This document shows positions 570 to 34,724 of a stretch of 34,724 nucleotides of DNA, in pieces. The stretch lies in contig JAFRTL010000003.1 in the NCBI GenBank assembly GCA_017427065.1, forward strand, positions 1-34,724, written 5' to 3'. Each line of letters begins with the position of its first letter. Position 1 is the first letter of the stretch. The stretch is from Bacteroidaceae bacterium. Its GTDB lineage: Bacteria > Bacteroidota > Bacteroidia > Bacteroidales > Bacteroidaceae. A program made the translations under genes and the position numbers. The notes beneath the pieces are model-generated. The model made no database searches and was not told the DNA's origin. It saw nothing but the letters and a program-made list of their open reading frames with translations.

Positions 570-3500
570 AGTCAATGTTCACACCGAACAAGTACTGACG
601 TGGCATACCGTATGCACCATAGTCAATACCCTTTGACTGGTCACCTGATACGTTGTTAACTTCAGGATCCAGACCTTCGTAACCGGTGAGGGTGAATACG
701 TTAGACAGCTGGAAGTACAGACGGATGCGAGACAGAGTCAGCTTCTGAACAACCTTACGTGGAAGGGTGTAACCAAACGTCAGGGTCTGCATACGCAGGT
801 AAGAACCGTCGGTTACATAGTCAGAGTGTGACTCAGTGTTCTCTGCGTGAGTGTCACCGAATACCCACAATGGAAGAGTTCCGTTTGGATTGCTTGGGCT
901 CCATGCGTTGTTTACACGCTCGTAGCTGTATACGTTTCCAAGGTTACCCCACAGGGTATAGTACTCATAGTGCTTGTAGATATCGTTACCCAATGAGTAG
1001 TACAGGTAAGTGCTCAGGTCGAAGTTCTTCCAGTTCAGGCTGATGTTAACACCACCTGTCAGGTCTGGATGAGGATTACCGATGATGGTACGGTCGTCGG
1101 CATTAACCTTGCCGTCACCATTGAGGTCCTTCCACTTGTAGTGACCTACGTAGTTCTTTGCTGTAGGTTTAACCTCTGTTCCGTCAGGAAGAGTACCGCC
1201 AGTAAGGTAGATCATGTTTGTAACACCGTAAGGCAGAGTGCCGTAGTTAAGTACTTCGCTCTCGCTCTTGTAGATACCGTCGTCTACATAACCGTAGAAC
1301 ATACCTACTGGCTGACCAACGGTCGTGATGGTCATCTGTGAGATACGAGAAGAATAGAACAGGTCAGAAGCACCCAGCTTAACTACCTCGTTCTTGTACC
1401 AAGAAGCGTTGGCGTTGATGTTGTAAGACACCTGACCGATCTTGTCTCTCCAACCAATTGAGAAGTCGATACCGGTGTTCTTGATCTTACCCTGGTTGGT
1501 GTTTGGCTTGGAAGCGGCACCTGACAGAGTGGTCCAAGAAGCTGGAACCAACATGTCGGAAGTATTCTTGATATAGAAGTCGAAGGTTGAAGTCAGACGG
1601 TTGTTCAGGGCGGTCAGGTCATAACCTACGTTGAACATCTTGATGGTCTCCCACTTGGCATTCTTGTCACCCAGAGCTGAGATACCGTAACCGGTTGCAG
1701 CGGTGGTGTTGTCACCAACGATACCATAGAGGTAGCGGGTTGGGTTAGAGTACTGGAATGCGTAGTTGTAAGCACCGATGTTGGAGTTACCGGTGGTACC
1801 GTAACCGGCGCGGAGCTTCAGGTCATCCAACCAGGTCTCATGGGCCTTGGCCATGAATGGCTCGTCTGAGATACGCCAACCAAGAGAAATTGATGGGAAG
1901 GTACCCCAACGGTTAGCCTCAGCGAACTTGGAAGAGGCATCACGACGGATGGTAGCTGTTACCAGGTACTTGCCCATGTAAGAGTAGTCCAGACGGCCGA
2001 AGAGACCGAACATGGTGTTCACTGAACCCATGCCACCACCGTTACCGATTGAAGAAGTACCACCATTGCCGATGGTCCAGGTGTTGGTGTCATCCTCGAA
2101 CACGTAGTCGTTACGCCATGCATTGATGTTGCGGCCGATACCCATCTTCAGGGCCTCGGTACCACCCAATACTGTGAAGTCGTGGTTCTCAGCTACGGTG
2201 AACTTATACTGTGCGGTGTTGGTCCACTGCCAGCCGAAGCCCCAAGAACCGTTCTCTGACAACTGGTTGCGAGAGCGACCTTCCTTATCGTACATGATGG
2301 AGATCTTGCCCATTGACAGACCCCAGCCACCGTTCAGGTTAACTGCGAACTGAGAACGGAGAGTCAGGCCCTTGATCCAAGGATCCTTCAACTCTGCGAA
2401 GAATGAAGACTGCAGACGGAAGTTACGGTTCCAGTTGTCATAGCCGTTTACAACGCTTGACAGTGCTGATACGTTACGGCCGCCATTACCCTGAGAACCT
2501 GCGAAGTCGCCGCCTACGTTGTAGGCTGGTACCCATGAGTTCATGGTATAGGTCTGACCGAAGGTTGAACCGTCACCCTGACCACCACGCTCACCGCGAG
2601 TCAGCATGATAGCTGCATTGGTGTTCTGTCCCAAGGTGAAGTGCTTGGAAGGATTGAAGGTGGTGTTCACGCGGAGTGAGTAACGCTCGAAGCTTGAACC
2701 CTTGATCGTACCGTTACGGTCCTGGTAGGCGAATGACATGGAGTACTGGCCCTTCTCGCCGCCACCCATTACTGACAGCTCGTGGTTCTGTGACCAGCCT
2801 GTCTGGGTTACGAGGTCGTACCAGTCGGTACCACGGCGGGCCTCAGCCTCTGAACCGTGAAGGATTTCCTTGATATAATAGTATGAAGACAGGGCATATG
2901 AGTCACCGCCGTTTGGCTTGTAGGCCTCTACCATACCCTCGTAGGAGCCGAAGCGTGCCATAGCTGCACTCTTGCTCAGACCAGCTGGAACGATGGTGTA
3001 AGGCATGTTGTTCTCGATGCTCATGCCTACGTAGTTGCCGTTGGCATCGTAAGCTGAACCGAACTGCTGATGACCAACTTTAAGTGGGTCGCCATCGCGA
3101 ACATCAACCAAGTTCTTCTGACCTTCACCGATTGCCATCATGTAGTCGTATGCACCAAGAGTGGTGAAACCGTCGTTGGCCATCGTGGAGGCACTGATGT
3201 AACCAGAATAAGATACGCGTACCTTGCCCTCCTTGTTACCCTGCTTGGTGGTGATGATGATGACACCGTTAGCAGCACGGGCACCGTAGATGGCGGTGGC
3301 TGCAGCATCCTTCAATACCTGGAAGGAATCGATATCGTTAGGGTTCACTGAGTTCACGTCTACACCCTGAACACCGTCAACGATGATCAGAGGGTCGGAA
3401 CCGTTCACACCACCGACACCACGTACACGGATAGTCGTTGATGCACCTGGGGCACCACCACCGGATACGTATACACCGGCTGCACGGCCCTGCAATGCCT

Positions 3501-3981
3501 CAGAGAAGGTTGCCACTGGCTGCTCGGCGATAGCGTCGCGTGAAACGACTGCCACAGAACCTGTGATGTCCTTCTTGGCCTGAGTACCGTAACCTACCAC
3601 TACCACTTCTTCCAGAGTCTCAGAATCTTCGCGAAGTAAAACATCCAGAGTAGTCTGGTTGTTCTGGAGTGCGATTTCCTGGGTGATGTAACCCACGTAA
3701 GAAACCTGGATTGTAGCGTTGTTTGGAACGCCCTGAATCACGGCAACACCGTCCATGTTGGTAATACCACCGATGGTAGTACCCTTCACCAGCACGTTGG
3801 CACCGATCACCTCTCCCATAGCATCCTTAACAGTCACGGTCACTGTGCGGCCGTTCTGCTGGATACCCTGAACTCCGTTTGTCTCATTCACACTTGCTGA
3901 TGCATTCATAGGCATGCAAAAAGCAAGCATTAAAGGCAATGCATAGAGTCCCAATTGCTTTCTAAAAAGATTGTTTCTCAT
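565..3981 (-). CDS. SusC/RagA family TonB-linked outer-membrane transporter
   Basis: The 1138-residue protein imports a substrate across the outer membrane, powered by TonB-ExbBD, with the SusD-type lipoprotein encoded downstream as its lid. Residues 1 to about 29 are a signal peptide ending ASA. Residues about 45-125 are a carboxypeptidase-regulatory-like (CarbopepD_reg) beta-sandwich (DAMGEVIGANVLVKGTT...). A TonB-box-like segment EEVVVVGYGTQ follows, then the plug domain (VSGGGAPGASTTIRVRG, LIIVDGVQG, VLKDAAATAIYGARAANGVI) and a long beta-barrel. The C-terminus ends in an aromatic strand (YLFGVNIDF), as expected for barrel assembly. Length and order are normal for the family. ATG at 3981 is the first start and precedes the signal peptide directly. 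No cognate regulator or glycoside hydrolase is visible here, so the substrate is unknown. Confidence 0.97.
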   Translation of the reverse strand: MRNNLFRKQLGLYALPLMLAFCMPMNASASVNETNGVQGIQQNGRTVTVTVKDAMGEVIGANVLVKGTTIGGITNMDGVAVIQGVPNNATIQVSYVGYITQEIALQNNQTTLDVLLREDSETLEEVVVVGYGTQAKKDITGSVAVVSRDAIAEQPVATFSEALQGRAAGVYVSGGGAPGASTTIRVRGVGGVNGSDPLIIVDGVQGVDVNSVNPNDIDSFQVLKDAAATAIYGARAANGVIIITTKQGNKEGKVRVSYSGYISASTMANDGFTTLGAYDYMMAIGEGQKNLVDVRDGDPLKVGHQQFGSAYDANGNYVGMSIENNMPYTIVPAGLSKSAAMARFGSYEGMVEAYKPNGGDSYALSSYYYIKEILHGSEAEARRGTDWYDLVTQTGWSQNHELSVMGGGEKGQYSMSFAYQDRNGTIKGSSFERYSLRVNTTFNPSKHFTLGQNTNAAIMLTRGERGGQGDGSTFGQTYTMNSWVPAYNVGGDFAGSQGNGGRNVSALSSVVNGYDNWNRNFRLQSSFFAELKDPWIKGLTLRSQFAVNLNGGWGLSMGKISIMYDKEGRSRNQLSENGSWGFGWQWTNTAQYKFTVAENHDFTVLGGTEALKMGIGRNINAWRNDYVFEDDTNTWTIGNGGTSSIGNGGGMGSVNTMFGLFGRLDYSYMGKYLVTATIRRDASSKFAEANRWGTFPSISLGWRISDEPFMAKAHETWLDDLKLRAGYGTTGNSNIGAYNYAFQYSNPTRYLYGIVGDNTTAATGYGISALGDKNAKWETIKMFNVGYDLTALNNRLTSTFDFYIKNTSDMLVPASWTTLSGAASKPNTNQGKIKNTGIDFSIGWRDKIGQVSYNINANASWYKNEVVKLGASDLFYSSRISQMTITTVGQPVGMFYGYVDDGIYKSESEVLNYGTLPYGVTNMIYLTGGTLPDGTEVKPTAKNYVGHYKWKDLNGDGKVNADDRTIIGNPHPDLTGGVNISLNWKNFDLSTYLYYSLGNDIYKHYEYYTLWGNLGNVYSYERVNNAWSPSNPNGTLPLWVFGDTHAENTESHSDYVTDGSYLRMQTLTFGYTLPRKVVQKLTLSRIRLYFQLSNVFTLTGYEGLDPEVNNVSGDQSKGIDYGAYGMPRQYLFGVNIDF

Positions 3982-4666: not shown

Positions 4667-6100
4667 TCATTTTGTTTCGTCGAATTTCCTGAAAACCTTA
4701 TACCCAATAAACGCCACGCAAATGCTCATCAGCGGACTGATGAAATTGAAGAAGCAATAAGGGAGGTATGTAAGTGTGGGTACACCGAGGATGGTGGCTT
4801 GCGTCATACCACAACTGCTCCAAGGAATCAGTGGAGAAGTGACAGTACAGCTGTCTTCGATGCTACGGCTGAGCAGGCGGTTCTCATACCCGTTTTCGTT
4901 ATAGATGCGCTTAAACATATTGCCCGTGAGGATGATGGAAAGGTATTGGTCGGCCACCATGGTATTGAGCAACATGCCTGTGGAAACCGTCGTTGCCACC
5001 ATGCCTGTGCGACGGCGACAAAGCGGCACCAAAAGACTGGTGATGCGACGAAGCATCCCACTGGCAGTCATACAAGCACCGAAAGTCATGGCAGAAATGA
5101 TCAACCATACCGTTCCCAGCATCCCCGCCATGCCTGATGTAGAAATCAAGTCGTTGATGGCTGCCACACCCGTCTCAATCTGCGTCTCGCCATAGATGCT
5201 GCGAATCATGCCCGTAAACAATTCCAACCCCCGGGGCGCATCGGTACCTGCCACCTCAAGCAACACATGAGGCTGGAATATCAATGCTGCAATGGCTGCC
5301 AGCAACGTGGATAGGAACAATACGACAAGTGCAGGCATGCGACGTGCAATCATCAAGATGGTAAGCAAAGGGACTACCAACAGCCAAGGAGACAGGTTGA
5401 ACTTCTGCTCCAACGTCTGCACATAGAGTGAAATCTCACCAGCATCGGTGACAGGATGTGCAAAACCCAGTATCGTGAATATCACCAAAGTAATGACCAT
5501 CGTAGGCACTACGGTATAGACCAAGTAACGTATATGACTGAACAACGGCACTTCTGCCATGGTGGAAGCCATCACCGTGGTATCGCTTAAAGGAGACATC
5601 TTGTCGCCAAAATAGGCCCCGGAAATAATGGCACCTGCGATCATGCCTTCACTGAATCCCTGTGCTTCCCCAATACCCAACAAGGCAATGCCGATGGTGG
5701 CAATGGTGGTCCAAGAGCTGCCCGTCATTACGGAAACAAGGCTGCAGATGAGACAGGTGCAAACTAAAAAGAAACTGGGACTGATAATCTGCAAGCCATA
5801 ATATATCAGGAGAGGCACTACGCCACTTAGTATCCACGTTCCAGAAATGGCACCAATGAGCAACAGAATCACTAAGGCAATGCTCACATTCGCCACATTC
5901 TCCTTAATGCCATCTTCCAATGCCTTCCACTTCACCTTGAAATAGGTCATGGCGATGAAGCAACAGAGACCTGCGGCTGCCAACAGAGCCGTCTGACTGG
6001 CACCGGAAAGAGCTGCACTTCCAAAGACATGAATGGTAATGGCCAAGACGGCGATCAAAACCACCACAGGGATAAGCGATATGAGAACGTCTTTTTTCAA
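4667..6100 (-). CDS. nhaC: NhaC family Na+/H+ antiporter
   Basis: A 477-residue inner-membrane protein with about a dozen hydrophobic segments from the N-terminus on. It would exchange Na+ for H+ and help pH and sodium homeostasis. The family signature GDKMSPLSDTT is present at about residues 165-175, preceded by MTGSSWTTIATIG; a second half-repeat carries GMLLNTMVADQYLSIILTGNMF. Length is normal for NhaC. The start is TTG at 6100; I see no ATG or GTG that fits the hydrophobic N-terminus MKKDVLISLIPVV. It follows the DUF4924 gene by 14 bp, with a 7-bp tandem repeat spanning the junction, and is the last gene of the LysE-DUF4924-nhaC unit. Related carriers of this superfamily can move other substrates (e.g. 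malate/lactate), so substrate is by homology. Confidence 0.9.
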   Translation of the reverse strand: MKKDVLISLIPVVVLIAVLAITIHVFGSAALSGASQTALLAAAGLCCFIAMTYFKVKWKALEDGIKENVANVSIALVILLLIGAISGTWILSGVVPLLIYYGLQIISPSFFLVCTCLICSLVSVMTGSSWTTIATIGIALLGIGEAQGFSEGMIAGAIISGAYFGDKMSPLSDTTVMASTMAEVPLFSHIRYLVYTVVPTMVITLVIFTILGFAHPVTDAGEISLYVQTLEQKFNLSPWLLVVPLLTILMIARRMPALVVLFLSTLLAAIAALIFQPHVLLEVAGTDAPRGLELFTGMIRSIYGETQIETGVAAINDLISTSGMAGMLGTVWLIISAMTFGACMTASGMLRRITSLLVPLCRRRTGMVATTVSTGMLLNTMVADQYLSIILTGNMFKRIYNENGYENRLLSRSIEDSCTVTSPLIPWSSCGMTQATILGVPTLTYLPYCFFNFISPLMSICVAFIGYKVFRKFDETK

Positions 6101-6126
6101 TTGTGAATTGTGAATTATGAATTATG
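6099..6126. repeat. Four 7-bp tandem units at the DUF4924/nhaC junction
   Basis: Consecutive units AATTGTG, AATTGTG, AATTATG, AATTATG fill the 14-bp gap and overlap both the DUF4924 stop codon and the first bases of the nhaC TTG start. Confidence 0.75.
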
Positions 6127-6636
6127 GTATTCTTTGGCCAATAGGCTGAGGAAGTTGGAGATCGCCTCTATGGCCTCGGAGGTACCCTGACTGATTTCTC
6201 GCTTCTGCATGCGCATGATCATGGTGAGGTACAGGGCATTGAAGCACGTTTCCAATTCGGGTTCCTCGGTAGGGTCTCCCCCTTTGTGCCTCAACTCCAC
6301 GATGAAAGGCAGGGCCTTGAAATAGGCGCTGCTATAGAAAGGATGCTTATTGTCCGAAAGTAATTCGTTATGCAGTTCTGTCAGTCGTAGGAGCACATTC
6401 TTGTTGATTTGCAGATGTCCTCGTTCTGTGGTACCTTCCAGACGCATCATATTACAAAGATCACTCAGCCAAACCTCATCATCGGCCCTACTTGACTCCT
6501 CACAGGCTGGAAGAATCGTTGTACGGACCCGATCTATGTCGCATCCGTTGGCGCGCAACAGGTCCTCTACTTGCCACATATACAACAGGTATTCGGCAAT
6601 GTTTGTCTTCCTTAGATGTTCAGCTGTATTCTTCAA
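6115..6636 (-). CDS. DUF4924 family protein
   Basis: A soluble, mostly helical 173-residue protein with no signal peptide. I recognise the Bacteroidales family DUF4924 from the start (LRKTNIAEYLLYMWQVEDLLRANGCDID) and from GHLQINKNVLLRLTELHNELL and FYSSAYFKALPFIVELR. No function is established that I know of. The best start is TTG at 6636, giving MKNTAEHLRKTNIAEYL; no ATG lies upstream in frame. It sits between the LysE-type gene (24 bp upstream) and nhaC (14 bp downstream) on the same strand, so it is probably co-transcribed with two membrane transporters. Both neighbouring gaps hold 7-bp tandem repeats. Confidence 0.85.
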   Translation of the reverse strand: MKNTAEHLRKTNIAEYLLYMWQVEDLLRANGCDIDRVRTTILPACEESSRADDEVWLSDLCNMMRLEGTTERGHLQINKNVLLRLTELHNELLSDNKHPFYSSAYFKALPFIVELRHKGGDPTEEPELETCFNALYLTMIMRMQKREISQGTSEAIEAISNFLSLLAKEYHNS

Positions 6637-6655
6637 TGATGAATGATGAATTATG
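6635..6655. repeat. Three 7-bp tandem units at the LysE/DUF4924 junction
   Basis: Units AATGATG, AATGATG, AATTATG lie in the 24-bp gap and touch the DUF4924 TTG start, the same arrangement as at the next junction of this operon. Confidence 0.7.
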
Positions 6656-6660
6656 AGGGG

Positions 6661-7323
6661 TTAGTACCAATATAAACTCCTACCCAATAGGGTGAAGAGG
6701 AAGCCAACGGCAGATACAACCATCACAGTGCCACCTATGATACGGTTCATCCACCAAATGGCATGCAAATTGAACTTATTTCGCACCTTGTTGATAAACC
6801 ATGTGAGGCCGAACCACCAAAGCAAGGCACCTGCAACTATCGAAAGGTATCCTGTCACCGTCTCTGACACCAATTCACCGGGCCCCACAAATGAGAAGCG
6901 GGCAAAAAGACCAATGAAAAGGAAGATGATCAACGGATTGGACAAGGTGACCAGAAAACCTGTCAGGAAATTCTTGTAATAGCTACCTTTCTTCCCCGAT
7001 GGCGGACGAAGTAAATGCAGGGGATTGCTTCGGAACATGTATAATCCAAAGAGGAAAAGCAGGGCACTACCGAAAAGCTGAAGATAGAAGATGTTCTGAC
7101 TGAGGTAATCGAACACAAAACTCATGCCCAAGCCTGTGATAAGGGCATAGATGATGTCGCTCAAGGCTGCCCCACAACCCGTGATAAAACCATACCAACG
7201 CCCCTTATTCAGTGTGCGCTGAACACAAAGCACACCTACAGGCCCCATAGGTGCCGACGCGACAATACCTATCAACAAGCCTTTCCAGATAATGTTCAGT
7301 ATAGTACCCACATCAATTAACAT
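6661..7323 (-). CDS. LysE family translocator (amino-acid or small-molecule exporter)
   Basis: A 220-residue inner-membrane protein with about six hydrophobic segments, typical LysE/RhtB length and topology. The N-terminal signature APMGPVGVLCVQRTLNKGR (about residues 24-42) and LTGFLVTLSNPLIIFLF in the second half are characteristic of this exporter superfamily. Substrate cannot be read from the sequence. I start it at ATG 7323 (MLIDVGTILNI). The open frame extends to 7422, but that would run into the divergent purL gene and past a well-formed promoter at 7328-7358. It is the first gene of the unit that continues into DUF4924 and nhaC. The -7 box ends only 4 bases before this ATG, so the message may be leaderless. 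Confidence 0.88.
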   Translation of the reverse strand: MLIDVGTILNIIWKGLLIGIVASAPMGPVGVLCVQRTLNKGRWYGFITGCGAALSDIIYALITGLGMSFVFDYLSQNIFYLQLFGSALLFLFGLYMFRSNPLHLLRPPSGKKGSYYKNFLTGFLVTLSNPLIIFLFIGLFARFSFVGPGELVSETVTGYLSIVAGALLWWFGLTWFINKVRNKFNLHAIWWMNRIIGGTVMVVSAVGFLFTLLGRSLYWY

Positions 7324-11152: not shown

Positions 11153-12628
11153 TTAGCAACGCTTGTCGAGGTAAGGCAGCACGTAAGGCTTGCGATACTC
11201 GTAGTAGTACAGACGGTGGGCAGCTGCCTCCTTGTCGTTACCAACGAAGGTACGGGTAGCTGGATTCCACTTCACTGGACGACCAAGCTCATAAGCAATG
11301 TTGCACAAGCAGCAGAGAACTGCGGTACCTGCACCAGCCTCGATAGGAGCAATAGTCTGCTCACGAGAACGGATACAGTCGATGAAGTTCTGAGCGTGTG
11401 GTGAGCTGATCTCATAAGCACCACCAGCTTGACGAGGAGAAGCGTTACGCTGTTGCTGCTGCTGTGGACGAGGAGTACCTGGACGAGTACCACGGATGTT
11501 CTCAGGAATCAGTGACATATCTGAGCACTCGATGTGTGAACGAGATACATCTACATAACCATTTGTACCCATGAACTTCAGACCCTGTGAATTTGGCTGA
11601 TCCTCCAGATAAGCGTGCTCCATCATGATGGTGCCATCAGGCCAACGGCAAGAATATGCCTCACCCTCATTCCAGTAGTTACGTGGATAGTACTCAACTG
11701 GCTGCAGACCGTCGAAGCCCATAGCGCAGTTAGCGATGTCATGCATGTGAGCACCCCAGTCAGCGGTGTAACCGTTACCAGTCTCACGATACCAACGCCA
11801 AGCACCCCAGAAACCTTCGCTCTTGCCAGGGATAACTTCAGTCTTCTTACCCTTCTGGATAGTCTGCTCCAGAACGATCTGTGGGCACAGCTGCTCGTTG
11901 TACTCGATCTTAGGATCGCTCAAAGGGCCTAACCAGAGGTTGAAGTTCAGGTTAGCAGGGATAGGCTGAACACCACCGAACTCCTCATACATCTTCTCGA
12001 TTGGACGTGGAGGATCACCTACCTTAGAGTAGATCTTCTCTACATGGCCGATCTTACCAGCCTGGATGATCTCAATAGCCTTCTGGAAAGTAGCACCTGA
12101 ACGCTGCTGGCTACCAGTCTGGAACACGCGCTTGTTCTGACGAACAGCATCGATCATAGCATAAGCCTCAGTGATGGTATAAGTCAGAGGCTTCTGGCAA
12201 TAAACATCCTTACCTGCCTGGCAAGCGTGGATGGTGTGCAGAGTGTGCCAGTGGTCTGGAGAAGCAACCTCAACAGCATCGATGTCTCTACGCTCGAGGA
12301 GCTGCTCATACTGCTCATAAACGTCGCAACGCTCGTTCATGCCCTTAGACTTCTGCCACTGCTCAACAGTACGGCGGAAGCGCTCAGTCTTAAAGCTGTC
12401 GACATCGCTACAAGCTGCAACCTGTACACCTGCACAAGATGCCAAGCCACGGAAGTCGCTCAGTCCCTGACGGCCAAGGCCGATGAAACCTAATACAACA
12501 CGGTCACTTGGAGCAACCTTCACACCATTCTGTGCCCAGCTAGGCATGATGGTAAGGCTAGACAAACCAAGGGCGGAAATGCGCAGGAAGTTTCTGCGGC
12601 TCATTCCATTCTTACTAGTTTTTTCCAT
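11153..12628 (-). CDS. Tat-exported Gfo/Idh/MocA family oxidoreductase
   Basis: A 491-residue NAD(P)-type oxidoreductase predicted to act outside the cytoplasm. It begins with a twin-arginine signal (SRRNFLRISALGLSSL, about residues 10-25). The Rossmann motif GFIGLGRQG is at 47-55, followed by a conserved ASPDHWHTLHTIHACQAGKDVYCQKPLTYT. The usual catalytic-region EKP motif reads QKP here (145-147). The C-terminal half has the alpha/beta substrate domain (DWGAHMHDIANCAMGF). A low-complexity insert with five glutamines lies near residue 395. The gene follows the isomerase-like gene by 31 bp on the same strand; both proteins carry Tat signals, so they probably act together on a sugar. Sugar type is unknown. 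Tat-exported members of this family normally leave with cofactor already bound. Confidence 0.93.
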   Translation of the reverse strand: MEKTSKNGMSRRNFLRISALGLSSLTIMPSWAQNGVKVAPSDRVVLGFIGLGRQGLSDFRGLASCAGVQVAACSDVDSFKTERFRRTVEQWQKSKGMNERCDVYEQYEQLLERRDIDAVEVASPDHWHTLHTIHACQAGKDVYCQKPLTYTITEAYAMIDAVRQNKRVFQTGSQQRSGATFQKAIEIIQAGKIGHVEKIYSKVGDPPRPIEKMYEEFGGVQPIPANLNFNLWLGPLSDPKIEYNEQLCPQIVLEQTIQKGKKTEVIPGKSEGFWGAWRWYRETGNGYTADWGAHMHDIANCAMGFDGLQPVEYYPRNYWNEGEAYSCRWPDGTIMMEHAYLEDQPNSQGLKFMGTNGYVDVSRSHIECSDMSLIPENIRGTRPGTPRPQQQQQRNASPRQAGGAYEISSPHAQNFIDCIRSREQTIAPIEAGAGTAVLCCLCNIAYELGRPVKWNPATRTFVGNDKEAAAHRLYYYEYRKPYVLPYLDKRC

Positions 12629-12659
12629 ATAAATTAATTAATAAGTGATAAAAAAGTTT

Positions 12660-13706
12660 TTAAAGTAATATCTGACGGGCATAGTTGATGCAAGTACCTA
12701 CTTCCTTCACAGCATTAGACCATGGCTTCACTGGATATTCGAGCTCGACATCGCAGTAGAAAGGCTTCTTCTCGTCGCGGATGTAGTGCAGCAGGTCTTC
12801 CAATGGAGTCTGTCCCTGACCCCAAACCTGGTTAGCATTTGGTTCCTGAGCATCAGGACCAGTCTTGTCTTTCATGTGGATAGAGAAGATACGATCTCCG
12901 TACTTCTTGATGAAATCTACAGGATGCTTACCGGTAGAACCGAAGTAGTGGCCCTGGTCGAAGTTAAGCATGATTTTTGGTGAGATAGCCAAAACTGGAT
13001 CTGGACCATCTTTCCACTCATCAGTAGCATACTGCATGTGGTTGTGGAAGGCAAGAATCATATCGTGCTTCTCTGCAAATGGAGCAACGCGCTTAGCTGT
13101 ATCGAGGCTAAGCTCGGTAGTCACGGCAGGGGCACCCATAGCCTTGGCCAACTTGAAAGCATAGTCAAGGTCTTCGTCAGAGCTGTTGGCTCCTGGGCTA
13201 GTCTTCACGATGTGAATGTCGATGCCCAGATCATTGAAACGCTTACGAACCTCGGCAACCTTGTCCCAATCCATGTTGGCACGCCAAGCCTTTACGGTCT
13301 CCTGATACTTAGCCATCTCTGCCTGTGCCTCTGGGCCCAGTTGGATACGACCTTGTATCTGCTGACCAGCTTTCTCTGCAGCTGCTCTGGCCTCAGCCAT
13401 CAGACGCTGTTGTGGACTCTCTGGAATGCCTAAGCAACCTTCCAAGTCGTTGCCCATAAGCTCAAGATTGCTCACACCTGCGTTCTTGCAGTAACCGAGA
13501 AGATTCTCCAAACCACCAGGGGTACCACGGAAGCTGTAGGTAATACAACCCATGGCTACGCCTGCAAAATTAGAATTTACCTTACCATCGGCAGGAGCTG
13601 CAGCTTTAGTATCAGCTCCGGCACATGATGTCAGTGAAGGCAATACGGTGATACCTGCCAAAGCAGCGGCAGATACTCCTAAAAAATGACGTCTTGATTT
13701 GTCCAT
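12660..13706 (-). CDS. Tat-exported sugar phosphate isomerase/epimerase-like (AP-endonuclease 2 fold) lipoprotein
   Basis: A 348-residue TIM-barrel protein of the xylose isomerase-like superfamily. The N-terminus has a twin-arginine motif (SRRHFLG) and a lipobox LTSC with Cys28, so it is predicted to be exported folded and lipid-anchored. The barrel starts near residue 50 (GCITYSFRG). Strand-end segments carrying likely metal ligands are visible: LELMGNDLEG, LAFHNHMQY, MLNFDQGHYFG, IFSIHMKDK, YCDVELEYP. Family members isomerise, epimerise or cleave sugars and keto-sugars; the exported Bacteroidetes versions often sit beside Gfo/Idh/MocA genes, as here. It is the first gene of the two-gene operon, behind a well-matched promoter at 13766-13797. 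The exact substrate cannot be inferred. Confidence 0.9.
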   Translation of the reverse strand: MDKSRRHFLGVSAAALAGITVLPSLTSCAGADTKAAAPADGKVNSNFAGVAMGCITYSFRGTPGGLENLLGYCKNAGVSNLELMGNDLEGCLGIPESPQQRLMAEARAAAEKAGQQIQGRIQLGPEAQAEMAKYQETVKAWRANMDWDKVAEVRKRFNDLGIDIHIVKTSPGANSSDEDLDYAFKLAKAMGAPAVTTELSLDTAKRVAPFAEKHDMILAFHNHMQYATDEWKDGPDPVLAISPKIMLNFDQGHYFGSTGKHPVDFIKKYGDRIFSIHMKDKTGPDAQEPNANQVWGQGQTPLEDLLHYIRDEKKPFYCDVELEYPVKPWSNAVKEVGTCINYARQILL

Positions 13707-13836: not shown

Positions 13837-13844
13837 TATCTTTG
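13837..13844 (+). promoter_or_regulatory. -7 box of the first DUF6057 gene
   Basis: TATCTTTG, an exact TAnnTTTG match, lies 27 bp before ATG 13872. There is no clear TTG at -33. Confidence 0.55.
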
Positions 13845-13871: not shown

Positions 13872-15668
13872 ATGACTTCTAATAATATTATAGAAAAACC
13901 ACATAAATTGTTCCCCTTGTTGTGGGTGACAGGCATACTGATAGCAGCGTGTGTGCTGTTGTTCTACTTTTTGCAGAGTTCTCAGGAATTTTATTATTTT
14001 TACAGGGAACAGCAGCAAATATTCCTTTTTGAAAACGATTATATTCTGAATCTGCTGAAACCCATTGGTGGTTTTGCTGCCATGGTTGGCCAATGGTTAG
14101 TGCAATTCTTTGTACTTCCTTACATGGGCGCCGTGATTTCCACCTTGTTGAGTCTGATGGCAGCCATCTTCTTAGGACTCACATTGAGAAAGTTGGATCA
14201 AAAGAACCTTTGGTGGATTTCATTGACCTTCCTGCCTTTCTTCCTCTATAATGTGTGTTTGCAGGATGTCTATGTGCATTATGACGGCTTGGTAGCATTG
14301 ACCATAGGATGTATTTGTCTGTGGAAGTATGCCATGCTTCCAAAAGACAGGTGGGTATTTAGACTTATAGGTGGCATTGTCTTATCTTTGGTACTATTCT
14401 ACCTGGCTGGTTCCATCGCCGTACTTATCTGTTTGACGATGCTACTGTTCGATTGGCTGCGTAAGGCTCCGAAAGCTTATCTGGGTGTGTTGCCGCTCAT
14501 TTTGGTTTTGCTTATGGGTATTATCGCCGTATATTACGGCTGGATGGTGGATTATAGCTATGCTTTCTGGACGAAAGGCTATTGCGAATACTACTTTGAA
14601 CCTACCTTCACACATACCTTAGCATGGATTTCCATCCCTATCTTGCTTTTGATGGCATGGCTATCTGCCCGATGGGAGTGCAAACGCGCTTGGATACAGC
14701 CGGTTCTGTCTTTGGCACTTCTCGTCTTGATGTTCTTTGGATGCCAAAGTCTGGCTAATGCCCAGAAGAATCATGCCTACTATACATTGCTGAAGCAGAT
14801 TCACTATGCTGATACGGAGGAATGGGATAAACTGACCAAGGTTCTGGACATCAGTGCCTCTAACGAGGTACAGATGAACTACCTGAACCTGGGACTCGCT
14901 CATGAAGGACGACTGCTTTCTGACCTATTCGTTTATCCACAACAAAATATCAACTCTCTAATGACTTCTTATGTGCAATATACTGACATGGGGGTATTGA
15001 TGAGCCGCCTCTATTATCAGATGGGCGTGATAGGAGCAGCGCAATATCAGGCATTCAGCAGCACCGTGGGCATCACTTATGGTAATCCGTCAATGACCAA
15101 ATTGCTTATCAAGACCTATCTCATCAATGGCACCTACCAGATTGCAGAAAAGCAAATCAGACTTTTGGAGAAGAGTTGGTATTATGCCGATTGGGCGAAG
15201 GGTATGCGTAAGTTTCTTTACAATGATGACGCAGTAATGGCAGATCCAGAACTGGGAAAGATGCGTTTAAGTCTGCCAGATAATGATGGATATGCCATGC
15301 TTTATGGTCCTTTGGTGGATTTGCAAACGGTGATGGATGCCAATCCAGACAATCGCGAAGCGGCAGATTACTTTATCGCCATGCTGTTGATAGCAAAGGA
15401 TTACAATGGCATCAACTTCTTCGTTGATCGCTATTATGGAAAGGGTTGCATGACCACCTTACCAGAGCGACTTCAGGAAGCGGTAGTAGCCATCCATGAA
15501 CATGACCCTGAATATTGCCGTGCTCATGGAGTGAGCGAAGAAACGATCAATCGTTTTAGTCAGTTCCGACAAGATGTGTTGACTCTGCGACGAAGCGGAG
15601 CTACCAATATGTCGCGTCTGGCAGCTGGATATGGAAAGACCTTTTGGTATTATATGGTCAAGAATTAA
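13872..15668 (+). CDS. DUF6057 family polytopic membrane protein, copy 1
   Basis: A 598-residue protein of two halves. Residues 1 to about 292 hold roughly nine or ten hydrophobic membrane segments (e.g. about 13-35, 68-106, 163-195, 201-223, 272-292). Residues about 293-598 are soluble and helical, with a repeat-like look (MNYLNLGLAHEGRLLSDLF, MTKLLIKTYLINGTYQIAEKQIRLLEKSW, EAADYFIAMLLIAKDYNGI) that resembles TPR-type arrays. I recognise the N-terminal REQQQIFLF...LLKPIGGFAAMVGQWLVQFF pattern as DUF6057, a Bacteroidales family with no function known to me. It is 79 bp upstream of a CxxCH propeller lipoprotein gene on the same strand, and a close paralogue lies at 18966-20747. ATG 13872 is chosen; an ATG at 13862 leads to a stop after six codons. 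Confidence 0.85.
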   Translation: MTSNNIIEKPHKLFPLLWVTGILIAACVLLFYFLQSSQEFYYFYREQQQIFLFENDYILNLLKPIGGFAAMVGQWLVQFFVLPYMGAVISTLLSLMAAIFLGLTLRKLDQKNLWWISLTFLPFFLYNVCLQDVYVHYDGLVALTIGCICLWKYAMLPKDRWVFRLIGGIVLSLVLFYLAGSIAVLICLTMLLFDWLRKAPKAYLGVLPLILVLLMGIIAVYYGWMVDYSYAFWTKGYCEYYFEPTFTHTLAWISIPILLLMAWLSARWECKRAWIQPVLSLALLVLMFFGCQSLANAQKNHAYYTLLKQIHYADTEEWDKLTKVLDISASNEVQMNYLNLGLAHEGRLLSDLFVYPQQNINSLMTSYVQYTDMGVLMSRLYYQMGVIGAAQYQAFSSTVGITYGNPSMTKLLIKTYLINGTYQIAEKQIRLLEKSWYYADWAKGMRKFLYNDDAVMADPELGKMRLSLPDNDGYAMLYGPLVDLQTVMDANPDNREAADYFIAMLLIAKDYNGINFFVDRYYGKGCMTTLPERLQEAVVAIHEHDPEYCRAHGVSEETINRFSQFRQDVLTLRRSGATNMSRLAAGYGKTFWYYMVKN

Positions 15669-15711
15669 ACATTGAACATTGAATGCTTGCATGAACTATG
15701 CTGAAGCATAG
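15668..15711 (+). repeat. 7-bp tandem repeat and small hairpin between DUF6057 copy 1 and its lipoprotein partner
   Basis: AACATTG occurs twice in tandem (15668-15681). A perfect 6-bp hairpin CTATGC-TGAA-GCATAG (15696-15711) follows, then CCGATAATTTTATT. The hairpin could attenuate transcription into the downstream gene or end a shorter transcript; it is too weak to call a firm terminator. Confidence 0.45.
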
Positions 15712-15747
15712 CCGATAATTTTATTGAACTGGTAACATTTGGATATT

Positions 15748-17220
15748 ATGACATATAAATCTTTTATTTGTCTTATTATGACATTGGTTTTGACCGCTTG
15801 TGAGAAGAGCGATATCACCATAAGTGGTCAGTTGGGTGAGGAAGTAACGATCACTCCAGATTACAAGGATGTGACCATTCCTCCAAACATTGCTCCTCTC
15901 AATTTCCAAACAGAGATAGAAGAGGCCACTTGTCTCATCATTGAAGATGAGCAAGGGAAAAGCTTCCAAGTCCATGCGAAAGAAGGGCTTTTCACCATTC
16001 CCTTGGGCCCATGGAAAGCGCTGTTGCAAGAGAATAAAGGCAAGAGCTTGACTCTGACCGTTTGTAAGGAAGAGGGAGACAAATGGAAGTCGTATAATCC
16101 TTTTACTATTCACGTTACAGAAGAAGAAGCCGATTCTTACATTGCTTATCGACTATTGGTATCATGTTATGGGCAATGGAATCGAATGGGTATTTATCAA
16201 CGTAATATAAGCAATTACGATCAGACCCCCATTTATGAGAATAATCTGACAGATTACAACTGTATCAATTGCCATAGTTTCCCCAATCAAGATCCTACCA
16301 AGCTCTTTTTCCACATGCGTGCAAAAAATGCAGGTACGGTGTTGATACAAAATGGTAACGTGCAAAAACTTAATACCGCTACCCCTGAAACCATGTCGGC
16401 TTTAGTGTATCCTTATTGGCACCCATCGGGCAATTTCATTACAACTTCCGTAAATAAAACATTTCAGAGTTTCTTCTACCATCATGAGAATACGTTGGAA
16501 GTCTATGACACCGACTCTGATGTCGTTATTTACGATGTGGAGCGTCAAGAAGTTTTCTCTAGTCCTGCTTTGAAAGCCGACAGTGTCTTTGAAAGCTTTC
16601 CTACCTTTTCTCCTGACGGACACAGTTTGTATTTCCTCACTGCACGTGCCAAACAGATGCCTGTAGAGTATAAAGACTTACGCTATAGCCTTTGCCGCAT
16701 AGACTTTGATCCTGAAACCCGAACATTAGGGCAGCAGGTAGATACCATTTTCAATGCAGAAAAAGAACATATGAGTGTGTCATTCCCACGAATTTCTCCA
16801 GATGGCAGATTTCTGGTTTTTGGCATGCAGGAGTTTGGGAACTTCTCTGCATGGCATAAGGATTGCGACCTTTATTGCCTGCGTTTAAACGATGGAGAAA
16901 TATATCCGCTTACTGCTGCCAATAGTGATGAATCAGAGAGTTATCACAGCTGGAGCAGTAATAGCCGTTGGATGGTTTTCAGTAGCCGAAGAATGGATGG
17001 ATTGTTTACGCGCACTTATTTCACATATATCGATAAAGATGGAGTGGCGCACAAGCCATTCTTGCTCCCACAAAAGAATCCTGTGCAGTACTATGATGAC
17101 TTGTTGTTAGCGTATAATCTTCCTGAGTTTATCAAGGATAAAGTAGAAATAAACCCTCACAAGATTGCTACGGTCATGCGTAACACGGAAGGAGTAAACG
17201 TCACTTATCGCAAAGACTGA
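15748..17220 (+). CDS. Lipoprotein with CxxCH heme-type motif and TolB-like (PD40) propeller, copy 1
   Basis: A 490-residue exported lipoprotein: signal peptide with lipobox LTAC (Cys18). Order of parts: a conserved beta-rich N-terminal region with PDYKDVTIPPNIAPLNF (about residues 38-54), a helix-rich linker, the c-type cytochrome motif CINCH at 172-176, then FFHMRAKNAGT whose His189/Met190 could supply the distal heme ligand. From about residue 210 a WD40-like/TolB-type propeller follows (SALVYPYWHPSGNFI, FPTFSPDGHSLYFLT, FPRISPDGRFLVFGM, SYHSWSSNSRWMVFSSRR). Heme attachment is inferred from the motif alone. ATG 15748 is preferred over the upstream TTG because the signal peptide then starts correctly. 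It converges on its paralogue, 7 bp apart, with no terminator between them. Confidence 0.82.
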   Translation: MTYKSFICLIMTLVLTACEKSDITISGQLGEEVTITPDYKDVTIPPNIAPLNFQTEIEEATCLIIEDEQGKSFQVHAKEGLFTIPLGPWKALLQENKGKSLTLTVCKEEGDKWKSYNPFTIHVTEEEADSYIAYRLLVSCYGQWNRMGIYQRNISNYDQTPIYENNLTDYNCINCHSFPNQDPTKLFFHMRAKNAGTVLIQNGNVQKLNTATPETMSALVYPYWHPSGNFITTSVNKTFQSFFYHHENTLEVYDTDSDVVIYDVERQEVFSSPALKADSVFESFPTFSPDGHSLYFLTARAKQMPVEYKDLRYSLCRIDFDPETRTLGQQVDTIFNAEKEHMSVSFPRISPDGRFLVFGMQEFGNFSAWHKDCDLYCLRLNDGEIYPLTAANSDESESYHSWSSNSRWMVFSSRRMDGLFTRTYFTYIDKDGVAHKPFLLPQKNPVQYYDDLLLAYNLPEFIKDKVEINPHKIATVMRNTEGVNVTYRKD

Positions 17221-17227
17221 CTCCTCT

Positions 17228-18715
17228 CTACGGCTGTGCACTGAAACTGACGTCAATCCCGTTGGTTTCTTTCATCATACGGGCGATATCCTTCTGATCG
17301 AATTCCACCTTATCACTGATGAATTCTGGAATATTGTAGCAGAAAAAGAGGTCCTCGTAAAACTCTACAGGGTTTTTCTGTGGCAAAAGGAAAGGTTTAT
17401 GTGCCACTCCGTCCACATCGATATAGGTAAAGAAAGGACGTGTGTAGAGGTCACCCATTCTTCGACTGCTGAAAACCATCCAACGGCTATTACTGCTCCA
17501 TGAGTGGTAACTATCTGTGCCATCCGGACTATTAGCTTCCGTGAGTGCACGCATCTCACCGCTCTGTAGATCGATGATATAGAGGTCGGCCTCAGAGTGC
17601 CAGATAGAGAAATTGCCCGCATCATGCAAAGTCACCACCATGAAACGTCCGTCAGGTGAAATGCGGGGGAAAGATACACTGCGTCCCTCTGCCTTAGCAT
17701 TATAAAGCGTATCAACCTTGCTTCCGAAAGTACGGCTCTCTACGTCCACATCGATGCGACAAAGACTGTAGTGTACATCTTTGTAGGTCAGCGGAAGACT
17801 ATCCACCTTGGCTGCAGAGCAGAAATAAAGGCTTCTGCCATCGGGAGAGAACGTTGGGAACGTTTCAAATGCATCATCCGACTTCAGCAGCGGAGTGCTG
17901 AACACTTCGTGACGATTCACATCATAAACCACCACATCAGAGGCATTATCGAACACTTCCAGGACATTCTGGTTATGCGCAAAGAAAGACTGATGTGTGT
18001 CATTGACGGAGAAAGCGATATATTCACTCGTAGGATGCCAAAACGGATAAACTAATGCAGAGATGGTTTCATCGGTCTTGGTGTTCAGCTTCTCGGCATT
18101 CTTTCCTTGACGTAATACCGTACCTGCATGCTTTGCCCTCATGTGAAACAACATCTTTTCTGGATCACGTGAAGAGAAACTATGGCAATTGACGCAATTG
18201 TAATCGGTAAATGCATTCTCATATACAGGCATCTGCTCAAAAGACTCCAAATCGCGCTGATAAATGCCCATTTCATTCCAGAAAGTATAGGTAGGTTGAA
18301 TGAGGCGGTAAGCGATATAAGGATCTATCTCTTCCTGAGCTACATGTATGCAGAAAGGCAAATAGGCCGTCCATCCATCTTGGGTCTTGTGACAAACGGT
18401 CAAAGTAATGTCTTGCCCTCTATTATGTTCCAATAGGTTCTTCCATTTCTTCGCTGGAATGGAGAACAATCCCTTAGCATCACCTAGCACCTGAATACTC
18501 TCCCCTTGAATGCCAGTTACCAAAAGGGCGACTTCTTCCTGGACTTGAACCTGGAAATTCAGTGGGGCGATGTTTGGCGGAATCGTCACGTCTTTATAAT
18601 CGGGGAAGACGGAAACTTCCTCATCAGACTGCTGAGAGACTTCTATAGTGGAGTTGCATGAAACCAGCAACAATAGCAGTAAAAACTGAAAGATAACATT
18701 GAATCGTATAGTCAT
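17228..18715 (-). CDS. Lipoprotein with CxxCH heme-type motif and TolB-like (PD40) propeller, copy 2
   Basis: A 495-residue paralogue of the protein at 15748-17220, similar over its whole length and equally organised. Lipobox LVSC places the acylated Cys at 20; FPDYKDVTIPPNIAPLNF, CVNCH (174-178), FHMRAKHAGT (His191/Met192) and the propeller repeats (FPTFSPDGRSLYFCS, FPRISPDGRFMVVTL, SYHSWSSNSRWMVFSSRR) are all kept. ATG 18715 is chosen because a signal peptide begins there (MTIRFNVIFQFLLLLLLVSC); the frame is open up to 18880 but that stretch lies beyond the promoter at 18745-18774. The gene points away from its DUF6057 neighbour, unlike copy 1. Function unknown. Confidence 0.82.
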   Translation of the reverse strand: MTIRFNVIFQFLLLLLLVSCNSTIEVSQQSDEEVSVFPDYKDVTIPPNIAPLNFQVQVQEEVALLVTGIQGESIQVLGDAKGLFSIPAKKWKNLLEHNRGQDITLTVCHKTQDGWTAYLPFCIHVAQEEIDPYIAYRLIQPTYTFWNEMGIYQRDLESFEQMPVYENAFTDYNCVNCHSFSSRDPEKMLFHMRAKHAGTVLRQGKNAEKLNTKTDETISALVYPFWHPTSEYIAFSVNDTHQSFFAHNQNVLEVFDNASDVVVYDVNRHEVFSTPLLKSDDAFETFPTFSPDGRSLYFCSAAKVDSLPLTYKDVHYSLCRIDVDVESRTFGSKVDTLYNAKAEGRSVSFPRISPDGRFMVVTLHDAGNFSIWHSEADLYIIDLQSGEMRALTEANSPDGTDSYHSWSSNSRWMVFSSRRMGDLYTRPFFTYIDVDGVAHKPFLLPQKNPVEFYEDLFFCYNIPEFISDKVEFDQKDIARMMKETNGIDVSFSAQP

Positions 18716-18744
18716 AAGAATGTGGTTTTCATTAATTATCCTTG

Positions 18745-18774
18745 CAAAGGTACAGATTATTATTTTCTTTTCAA
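18745..18774 (-). promoter_or_regulatory. Promoter of lipoprotein copy 2
   Basis: Minus strand TTG (18774-18772), 19 nt, then TACCTTTG (18752-18745): an exact Bacteroidetes consensus, predicting a leader of about 25 nt. Confidence 0.75.
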
Positions 18775-18927
18775 CAAATAACCCATGTTTTCTTATATCA
18801 AGGCTTATTCTTTGTTTAAATAATGCGAGAACCTCAAAACATCCAAAGGTTTTTCTTACGATTGGCGAAGGACAAATCATTTAACATATATTAAGAAAAT
18901 CTTTATTATTAATAGGACCATAAGATG

Positions 18928-18935
18928 TAATTTTG
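18928..18935 (+). promoter_or_regulatory. -7 box of the second DUF6057 gene
   Basis: TAATTTTG, an exact TAnnTTTG match, 30 bp before ATG 18966. No TTG at -33. The AT-rich 250-bp gap 18716-18965 otherwise holds only the divergent promoter. Confidence 0.5.
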
Positions 18936-18965
18936 TATGGTATTATTGGTTAATAACGACAGGTA

Positions 18966-20747
18966 ATGAATTCAGATAAATCTTCAAAACTTAGATTGTT
19001 GTTGACAGTAGGCATGCTAATTGCAGTATGTTTATTGTTGTATTCTATTTTGGAGAGTACCCAGAGGTTCGTTTATTATTACAAGGAACAGCAACAGATA
19101 TTCCTTTTCGATCGAGCCTATATCTTCGGTTTATTAAAGCCTATCGGGGGTTTGGCCGTGATGGTGGGACAATGGTTGGTACAATTCTTCGTGCTGCCAC
19201 ACACAGGTGCCTGGATCTCAACATTACTCAGTCTGGTATCTGCCTCCTTCATCTTCTTAAGCTTGCGAAAGTTGGATGCACATGGATGTTGGTGGGTACC
19301 ATTAGTATTCATACCTGTTTTACTATACAACATTTGCTTGCAAGAAAGCCATGTACATTATGATGGATTAGTGGCACTAGCTATCGGAAGTTTCTGCCTT
19401 TGGGTATATTCCTTACTGGCCAAGACTCATTGGGCATTTCGCGTTATAGGTGGTGTGGTGATTGCATTGGCGCTGTTCTATTTGGCAGGTTCAGTGGCTA
19501 TACTCATTAGTCTTTCGATGTTGTTGTTTGACTTGCTTCGTAAGGCTCCAAAAGCCTATCTGGGAGTAGTCCCATTGGCAGTGGTGCTTTTCTTGGGCAT
19601 CTTGGCAGTGTCTTTCAGATGGTTAATGGATTATGATTATGCGTTTTGGACAAAGGGCTACTGCGAATATTACTATGCTCCAACTACCCTACATACTTTG
19701 TCATGGATCTCACTACCTTTACTGATGCTTTTAGTGGGAGTGTCGGCCAAATGGCAGTGGCGCAAGACTTGGATGGAACCAGTATTGGCTGTGGTACTGA
19801 TAGGACTGATGACCTTCGGCTATCTGCGAGTATCAAACGGTGTGATGAACCATGCTTACTATACTTTGCAGGAACAGATACACTATACCGATACGCAAGA
19901 ATGGGATAAGTTGACCACCGTAAAGGGGGTTAGTGCCAATGACGATATACAAATGAACTATTTCAACCTTGGGCTTTCACATCAAGGACGGCTGCTTAAT
20001 GACTTGTTGATCTATCCACAGAAAGGCATGTCATCATTGATGATAGGCGATGTGCAAGATACGGATATGAGTGTACTGATGGCACGCCTGTACTATCAAA
20101 TGGGAATAATAGGGGCAGCCCAATATCTATCTTTTTGTGCGACTGTGGGCATCACCTATGGTAACCCTTCTATGACGAAGTTACTGATTAAGACCTACCT
20201 CATCAATGGCTCTTATCAGATGGCAGAGAAGTATATAAAGATGCTTGAGAAAAGTTGGAATTATGCCGACTGGGCAAACGAACAACGCAAGTTCCTTTAT
20301 AACGATAAGGCAGTAGAAACAGACCCGGAGTTAGGGATGATGCGTCGAGGGCTCTCCATGAATAGTGATGAATTTGTAATAATTCATGGTCCTTTATCAG
20401 ATTTAACCTCAGTATTGGATACTAATCCTGACAACCAAAAGGCGGCCGAATATTTAATAGGCATGCTATTAGTTTCCAAAAATTTCGATGGCGTAATAGA
20501 GTTTGTGGAACGGTATTATGGGAAGGGATGTTTAACCTCTTTACCCGACCGCCTGCAAGAAGCGGTAGTGGCCATAGCAGAGCACGATCCTGATTATTGC
20601 AGGGCACATGGAGTGAGTGAAGAAACCATCGACCGATTCAGTAGTTTCAGGCAGGATGTGATTACCTTGAGAAGGAATGGAGCCTCTAACTTTTCTGGTT
20701 TGGCGGCTAAATATGGCAAGACTTTTTGGTATTACATGCTAAAATAG
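18966..20747 (+). CDS. DUF6057 family polytopic membrane protein, copy 2
   Basis: A 593-residue paralogue of the protein at 13872-15668, alignable without large gaps from end to end. The N-terminal half again has about nine or ten hydrophobic segments, including KEQQQIFLFDRAYIFGLLKPIGG and GQWLVQFFVLPHTG. The C-terminal soluble half keeps QMNYFNLGLSHQGRLLNDLL, GNPSMTKLLIKTYLINGSYQMAEKY and FRQDVITLRRNGASN. Both copies keep HDPxYCRAHGVSEETIxRFS and end in GKTFWYYM. The strongest conservation includes the loops YNxCLQxxxVHYDGLVAL and FWTKGYCEYYxxPT, which may be functional sites. It is divergent from lipoprotein copy 2 and converges on recQ with a 7-bp gap. No function is assignable. Confidence 0.85.
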   Translation: MNSDKSSKLRLLLTVGMLIAVCLLLYSILESTQRFVYYYKEQQQIFLFDRAYIFGLLKPIGGLAVMVGQWLVQFFVLPHTGAWISTLLSLVSASFIFLSLRKLDAHGCWWVPLVFIPVLLYNICLQESHVHYDGLVALAIGSFCLWVYSLLAKTHWAFRVIGGVVIALALFYLAGSVAILISLSMLLFDLLRKAPKAYLGVVPLAVVLFLGILAVSFRWLMDYDYAFWTKGYCEYYYAPTTLHTLSWISLPLLMLLVGVSAKWQWRKTWMEPVLAVVLIGLMTFGYLRVSNGVMNHAYYTLQEQIHYTDTQEWDKLTTVKGVSANDDIQMNYFNLGLSHQGRLLNDLLIYPQKGMSSLMIGDVQDTDMSVLMARLYYQMGIIGAAQYLSFCATVGITYGNPSMTKLLIKTYLINGSYQMAEKYIKMLEKSWNYADWANEQRKFLYNDKAVETDPELGMMRRGLSMNSDEFVIIHGPLSDLTSVLDTNPDNQKAAEYLIGMLLVSKNFDGVIEFVERYYGKGCLTSLPDRLQEAVVAIAEHDPDYCRAHGVSEETIDRFSSFRQDVITLRRNGASNFSGLAAKYGKTFWYYMLK

Positions 20748-33991: not shown

Positions 33992-34724
33992 TTACTTCCA
34001 GTTCTCATTCTGTACGAAGCGACCCATAGCGGTCTGAATCTCAGTCTGAGGAATTGGGAAGGTTACCCAGTCAGCAGAATAAGCATTACCGAACTTGCCT
34101 GGGAAGAACTGGCCTTCGTATTCACGGTAAGCATTCAGCACGTTAGCAACAGTACCCCAACGGGCAATGTCAAACCAACGGTGACCTTCCATACCGAACT
34201 CTGCACGCATCTCACGAGCCAAAGCGGTCTTAGCCTCTTCCTTGCTAGCAAAGTTAGTATACAGACCAATCTTATAGGTAGCAGCTGCACCAGTCTTAGT
34301 CTCACCATTTACAAGGTCGGTAAATGTCTTACCTGCAGCAGGATTCTCGATAAAGCTGTTAGCAGCACGTGCACGTACCTTATTAATCAAAGTCAGAGCA
34401 GTACCCAGATCACCTTCTTCGATGGCACATTCAGCACGCATCAGCAGGATGTCGGCGAAACGGATTACGTGATAGTTGGCAGCGTTAGAACTGACGGCAG
34501 TAGCCACAGCCGTAGAACCACGGTCAGCCTTGCGGTGCTGATACTTGATGTTCATCTGCAGACCACCATTGGTGTAGTCACGTACCCAACCGTTCAACTC
34601 GGTAGGAATACCATAATCCAGATAAGGAACTCCGAAACGACCTGCGCAGTAGTCCAAACGTGGATCAACAGGAGTATCCAGGTCAGTTACAATCTTACCA
34701 TCTACGATAGTAGTCAAAGGCTGA
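33992..34724 (-). CDS. SusD/RagB-type outer-membrane lipoprotein, C-terminal part (runs off right edge)
   Basis: About 243 codons of the 3' end are present; the frame is open to base 34724. VDPRLDYCAGRFGVPYLDYGI, then NYHVIRFADILLMRAECAIEEGDLGTALTLINKVRARA (the conserved C-terminal TPR-like helix of SusD/RagB) and FGMEGHRWFDIARWG are diagnostic. A ending of IPQTEIQTAMGRFVQNENW is typical of the family. The codon TTG at 34717 is internal, not a start. It belongs to a second susC/susD operon whose susC would lie beyond the right edge. Its N-terminal half, lipobox and substrate are not visible. Confidence 0.93.
   Translation of the reverse strand, partial: QPLTTIVDGKIVTDLDTPVDPRLDYCAGRFGVPYLDYGIPTELNGWVRDYTNGGLQMNIKYQHRKADRGSTAVATAVSSNAANYHVIRFADILLMRAECAIEEGDLGTALTLINKVRARAANSFIENPAAGKTFTDLVNGETKTGAAATYKIGLYTNFASKEEAKTALAREMRAEFGMEGHRWFDIARWGTVANVLNAYREYEGQFFPGKFGNAYSADWVTFPIPQTEIQTAMGRFVQNENWK

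Follow-up and report, generated by a model that had tools for sequence, protein, structure and literature searches.

A DUF6057 membrane protein and a CxxCH-bearing PD40 lipoprotein inherited as a pair in Bacteroidales: a possible periplasmic redox accessory module

The closest described systems to the locus reported here are the Tol-Pal system, in which the propeller protein TolB links Pal and TolA, cytochrome cd1 nitrite reductase, SusE/SusF and other surface glycan-binding lipoproteins of polysaccharide utilisation loci, and the TMTC/PMT glycosyltransferases. The locus lies in a 34,724-nucleotide stretch of a Bacteroidaceae genome (contig JAFRTL010000003.1; hereafter the window, which is the entire contig C27) and consists of two genes for membrane proteins of the Pfam family DUF6057 (A and A') and two genes for putative lipoproteins with a CxxCH motif and a PD40 propeller (B and B'). 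The pairing of A with B, proposed in an earlier note on the window, was confirmed across Bacteroidales, and no description of the pair was found in literature searches. DUF6057 has no assigned function in Pfam, and in the titles and abstract openings covered by the literature search no mention of DUF6057 or PF19529 was found; queries that combined polysaccharide utilisation with PD40, CXXCH or c-type cytochromes, or that concerned the Q1F2 strain, returned nothing on the pair from the same kind of text.

B resembles TolB in its PD40/TolB-like propeller, in its probable periplasmic location and in perhaps being linked to an inner-membrane protein whose helical domain is periplasmic, but it is a lipoprotein, has an additional N-terminal region and bears a CxxNCH motif, and against the TolB equivalog profile TIGR02800 B and B' score 27.8 and 45.4 bits, below the cut-off of 343. 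Cytochrome cd1 nitrite reductase shares with B the succession of a c-type haem motif and a propeller in one periplasmic chain, whereas B is a lipoprotein paired with a DUF6057 protein and matches no such family above cut-off. Like SusE/SusF and their kind, B is encoded close downstream of SusC/SusD at several loci; unlike them, it has no acidic export tail, carries a haem-c-like motif and has an inner-membrane partner. Like the TMTC/PMT glycosyltransferases, A has a membrane core of several helices and then a repeat domain, but it has no invariant acidic residue and the profile match is marginal.

Pairing and co-inheritance of A and B

The sample comprised 198 Bacteroidales genomes, which were searched with DUF6057 and with a profile of three B proteins; DUF6057 was found over its cut-off in 21 of them and the B profile, at an E value of 1e-20 or better, in 23. 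Dropping seven rows below cut-off and merging six pairs of split rows to one place each gave 44 A places, and B lay within 2 kb at 38 of these (three from the window's genome), or at 35 of 41 when the window's genome was excluded. A preceded B on the same strand in 33 of the 38 pairs, B preceded A in four, and one pair, that of A' in the window, was on opposite strands. With the starts of the open reading frames (ORFs) as called, 20 of 35 same-strand pairs lay within 10 bases and nine had a 4-base overlap. The neighbourhood analysis was thus positive, the two families not occurring mostly apart, and the two-part envelope system that the earlier note had suggested fits these pairing data.

Six A places had no B. 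Two are at or near contig ends (G149:C56 and G011:C120), one is an A fragment (G105:C79), and the genomes of the remaining three (G055, G030 and G108) also hold an unpaired B, which in G108 has no CxxCH. In G055, G030 and G149 the relatives of the unpaired A match those of the unpaired B, and the first two look like split cassettes and the third like a cassette cut by contig ends. L071 is a true exception to the pairing: its single A (5203-6993) shares the RecQ/RecJ neighbours of the window and has genes of the SusC/SusD clusters upstream, and the 17 kb examined contain no B. A further ORF, in L097 (6680-7507), encodes the membrane half of A only (275 amino acids), and no B was found in the 14 kb examined.

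In a sample of the phylum, DUF6057 was found in three of 296 genomes, including that of the window, and the other two have B next to A. The annotation of Parabacteroides distasonis gives a "DUF6057 family protein" and then a "PD40 domain-containing protein" in the four cassettes examined. Relatives of B were found in records named Parabacteroides distasonis, Phocaeicola massiliensis and Bacteroides fragilis, and none in the viral contigs searched. The P. distasonis "plasmid" records L187, L188 and L190 hold housekeeping genes such as pfkA, argC and rsmI, and may be pieces of chromosome instead of plasmids.

Comparison of the A and B trees for 37 adjacent pairs gave a distance correlation of 0.74, which was reached in none of 5000 permutations; when partner swaps were confined to the cassettes of one genome, a control for shared genomes, 2 of 20,000 reached it. 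The trees thus agree beyond what the genome explains and, by this phylogenetic measure, A and B are inherited as a unit. Tree agreement alone does not equal contact. Adjacency and shared descent together make it highly probable that A and B work as a pair, and we lean towards direct contact between them. Two orphan families hereby become one testable system, with one partner family, probably one compartment and often a position near glycan-uptake genes.

Predicted topology, compartment and haem motif

We propose, with a probability of about 0.45, that A and B would be two subunits of one periplasmic module tethered to the inner membrane and serving as a redox accessory. A would anchor the module by up to nine helices and present its helical-repeat domain to the periplasm, while B, a lipoprotein in the same compartment, would dock onto that domain and carry one covalent haem c at CxxNCH, with His189 of an FHxR motif as a candidate ligand. 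The haem would adjoin the TolB-like propeller, and conserved His, Asp and Arg residues of the propeller may act with it. The module would take part in electron transfer or act as an oxidoreductase on material entering the periplasm, often glycans imported by SusC/SusD.

Members for these analyses were drawn from 49 A and 50 B ORF matches by leaving out low-scoring, short, split and contig-cut ORFs (shortened As included) and a propeller-only match of 753 amino acids, which gave 39 A (set A3) and 42 B (set A4). All 39 A matched the DUF6057 profile. A plain hydropathy count gave eight helices in A and nine in A'; in a nine-helix layout, picked from hydropathy and charge and compared only with its mirror image, more Lys/Arg fell on the assigned inside in all 39 full-size members (mean 10.9 vs 4.0), and this charge bias places the C-terminal helical domain of A in the periplasm. 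Shortened copies of A with an odd helix count occur in the window's genome (G000; three) and in B. fragilis (about five), whereas the counts of 6, 4 and 4 in L114, L115 and L116 depart from odd-number parity. Single-chain AlphaFold models from shallow alignments (six A and five B sequences) had mean predicted local distance difference test scores of 48.1 for A and 49.5 for B, too poor for inference.

Acidic residues right after the lipid-bearing cysteine are the surface-export signal of Bacteroidota lipoproteins, a point on which our literature search found nothing. Positions +2 to +6 of mature B held on average 0.86 acidic and 0.71 basic residues (42 B), as compared to 2.1 and 0.1 in the SusD-cluster proteins (the 10 of 19 with a recognised lipobox); at least two acidic residues were present in 8 of 42 B vs 10 of 10 of these SusD-cluster proteins. 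With the domain of A predicted to be periplasmic and B without an acidic tail, the periplasmic half of the former description of B as a "surface or periplasmic" lipoprotein is favoured and the surface half is not, and it is quite probable from these signals that A and B are both in the periplasm.

All 42 B have a lipobox cysteine and a PD40 match at an E value of up to 0.1, and the N-terminal region carries PDYxxVTIPxNIAPLNF. The 42 B are 31-92% identical to the window's B, and 40 of them retain CxxNCH; the histidine of FHxR, 13 residues after the motif, is likewise present in 40 of 42. The two B without the CxxCH cysteines (L111, 6156-7667; L094, 7062-8459) have also changed H370 and H400, each of which is changed in four of the 42 B (co-loss with CxxCH, p 0.007 each); the link of CxxCH loss with propeller-histidine change is suggestive, the proteins being divergent and one B, in L112, running contrary to it. 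The B of L111 and L094 would serve as natural controls for the haem idea. The cytochrome-c assembly family PF01578 was present in 22 of 23 genomes with B vs 134 of 175 others (p 0.023), and at two places in the window's genome; the one genome with B and without PF01578, G157, holds a partial B match only. No haem-propeller family matched B or B' above cut-off, and none was among the 25 families listed, of 34, for the 42 B, one of which matched the methylamine dehydrogenase heavy chain weakly. On the strength of the motif and its conservation, B likely carries haem c.

The motif could also be read as a disulfide or metal site in a haem-independent, Tol-like trans-envelope link, with the propeller of B bridging the outer membrane and the periplasmic domain of A. 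The best-scoring solved relatives of B by profile are mostly TolB-type propellers, and the membrane part of A shrinks to about three helices in the third copy of the window's genome and about five in B. fragilis while the domain and B stay, as for an anchor. One P. distasonis cassette, the only one examined for Tol genes, has TolQ/ExbB, ExbD and TonB genes some kb upstream. Such a link is rather unlikely, since B remains far under the TolB family cut-off and CxxNCH, nearly always kept and lost along with the propeller histidines, resembles a cofactor site.

The conserved residues of A bear on a second alternative, in which A would be a GT-C-type glycosyltransferase, akin to the TMTC/PMT group with its C-terminal repeats, and B would be the partner that handles the substrate. 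Positions conserved at 60% or more in the membrane part are mostly Gly, Pro, Phe and Tyr, plus Gln78; those in the helical domain include W318, N339, A425, K427, W441, P531 and Q535-E536-A537, with T590, W592 and Y594 near the C-terminus. E46 of A sits in the first periplasmic loop, the place of a retained acidic residue in GT-C enzymes; the layouts of membrane core and repeat domain are alike, and hhalign with PMT_2 gave a weak match (P 0.0076, probability 5) as compared to P 0.52 for a control of the MFS family. This alternative is nonetheless very improbable: the weighted alignment revealed no invariant acidic residue in the membrane part of A, E46 being E in 61% and Q in 26%, and copies short of much of the membrane part still retain B. 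Sub-threshold DUF6057 matches were rejected as support for it, as only one of the five examined out of seven was TMTC-like (L035), a level equal to noise; the other four resemble, in our own reading, an ABC permease, an O-antigen-ligase-like protein, a chemoreceptor-like protein and a sodium-symporter-like protein or its neighbour. A search with PF14264 gave no match in 60 genomes or in 14 controls, and was uninformative.

SusC/SusD genes and other neighbours of the pair

At 14 of 45 loci SusC or SusD was found no more than 5 kb away, in some cases directly upstream, vs 2.7 loci expected from SusD density, an association absent from the earlier note. None of 200,000 random draws reached 14 of 45, a figure that is only a guide: either gene qualifies for the observed count, the expected value is based on SusD plus a small margin, and loci that share a genome are not independent. 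Glycoside hydrolases (GHs) flanking the cassettes belong to GH2, GH28, GH36, GH43, GH88, GH97 and GH106. In B. fragilis NZ_CP018938.1 the order is FecR, a frame-broken SusC region, SusD, A (16 bases on), B, GH3-like pieces and a sugar-porter-like gene, in which the SusC, A, GH3 and porter labels are our own reading of ORFs, not annotated features, and B is a search match.

A role of the pair in glycan handling is, on this enrichment, a tentative suggestion, as is any glycan link of the window's own copies. If B carries haem c, a cytochrome would be placed inside SusC/SusD-type loci, whose usual picture, to our knowledge, does not include redox chemistry. The bolder version is a new periplasmic redox unit of Bacteroidales, in which a membrane helical scaffold would hold a haem-c propeller lipoprotein, and which, as an exchangeable two-gene part of glycan-uptake loci, would carry out oxidation or reduction of imported glycans or of products of their breakdown. 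This version is doubtful, and we know of no glycan oxidation or reduction chemistry in such loci.

In L092, L101 and L103 the cassette has a hybrid two-component regulator cluster as its neighbour (the domain scan covered the L092 member), which would suit a periplasmic haem-based or redox sensor of glycan or oxidant state in place of a catalyst, as would a propeller with a single haem. The regulator is present at only three of the 45 loci, of which two belong to a single genus, Pfam scans found no signalling domain fused to A or B, and the B. fragilis locus has its own FecR and sigma factor, all of which makes a sensor improbable.

Several observations weigh against the redox module itself. 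No SusC/SusD lies within 5 kb of 31 of the 45 loci, the window's included (some are on short contigs), the window's cassette begins 9.9 kb from its SusC, and genomes with just one or two SusD (G018, G023, G137 and G178) hold two to four cassettes each; the A-B module is not tied to SusC/SusD loci. Among the 25 families listed each, of 85 and 103, for 155 flanking genes, no recurrent redox partner or second cytochrome was found; the neighbour set held 159 genes, of which 155 entered the tallies, and excluded nine loci, either close duplicates or lacking a complete cassette. No histidine in the membrane part of A is conserved at 60% or more. The B of L112 has changed both H370 and H400 and retains CxxCH, and in L111 the B without CxxCH adjoins an A. 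The link with PF01578 is weak because the family is common, and G072, G131 and G157 hold only partial B matches; in addition, G011 (61% complete) has A and no PF01578.

The four-gene block of the window and its history

The four genes reported earlier in the order A+ B+ B'- A'+ were recovered as full-length ORFs, both copies of each partner being intact: A and A' match DUF6057 (PF19529) almost from end to end (430 and 428 bits; cut-off 29.8), and PD40 (PF07676) is the sole Pfam match above cut-off for B and B' (35.1 and 49.1 bits; cut-off 20.9). An alternative TTG start of B is possible 9 bases upstream of 15748, and the reading frame of B' stays open as far as 18880. Identity is 65% between A and A' and 58% between B and B'. 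L073, a separate metagenome-assembled genome (MAG) from yak omasum, carries all four genes in identical order and orientation, with identities of 87, 92, 94 and 88% and flanking genes of the same clusters, and the block order is therefore no assembly accident.

Table 1. Features of the A B B' A' block in the window
Feature	Position	Strand	Description
A	13872..15668	+	ORF of 598 aa; PF19529, 429.7 bits; about nine membrane helices, then a helical domain (about residues 298-598), predicted periplasmic
B	15748..17220	+	ORF; lipobox Cys18, N-terminal region, CINCH at residues 172-176, PD40/TolB-like propeller (by profile)
B'	17228..18715	-	ORF; second lipoprotein, PD40, CVNCH; tail to tail with B, 7 bases between
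A'	18966..20747	+	ORF of 593 aa; second DUF6057 protein, PF19529, 427.8 bits
B'/A' divergent intergenic region	18716..18965	.	-7-like boxes TACCTTTG for B' and TAATTTTG for A'; weak
-7-like box TATCTTTG	13837..13844	+	35 bases before A; weak

The inversion of B' stood, while its promoter, previously described as an exact consensus, is near-consensus only. TACCTTTG lies 37 bases before B' with a TTTG box 22 bases upstream of it and a TTG at 19. Upstream of B' there was no match to TTTG-N17-21-TANNTTTG. The -7-like boxes at -35 (A) and -38 (A') have no TTG box in reach. No such box was found upstream of B, which fits co-transcription of B with A. These boxes are weak evidence because TANNTTTG is present 21 times in the window, both strands counted.

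The block is a duplicated cassette in the loose sense that both partners are doubled, but a single late duplication of B and B' was not supported. In the tree, B clusters with the B of another MAG, L072, and not with B', and a B+B' clade was rejected by the approximately unbiased (AU) test (p 4.9e-5); by this phylogeny, B and B' separated before the L072 lineage branched off. A and A' show a tendency to group that lacks firm support (69/78), and grouping A with L072 was not rejected (p 0.06); A and A' may be equally old and later homogenised, or the cassette may have been re-paired.

The window's genome (2.5 Mb, 83% complete) holds a third A-B pair, absent from the earlier note. It lies on contig C19 and consists of a DUF6057 relative of 348 amino acids and a B relative, 36% identical to B, with a 4-base overlap; the membrane part of the former is much reduced (three helices by hydropathy) and its helical domain largely kept (profile positions 270-481 of 569).

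Elsewhere in the window, a SusC-type receptor gene (565-3981, -) is followed by a SusD-cluster gene (1-504, -) cut by the left end, and another SusD-like gene lies near the right end (33992-34717, -). Pointing away from A, a Gfo/Idh oxidoreductase gene stands beside one for a TIM-barrel protein with a Tat-like (twin-arginine translocation) leader (11153-13706, -). The Gfo/Idh protein scored 113 bits against a glycoside 3-dehydrogenase profile, below the cut-off of 750. A link to a 3-keto-glycoside pathway through these two genes was dropped: the near relative L073 is the only compared locus in which their clusters are seen again, and the literature search on the idea gave nothing relevant.

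Reduced or broken-looking copies were seen at L118 (6797-8289), L114 (4948-6342) and L120 (8099-9682), being, respectively, an A split in two frames, a short A and a stop-interrupted B. Tandem A-B-A-B arrays occur in L107 and L190, where the cassette is repeated without inversion.

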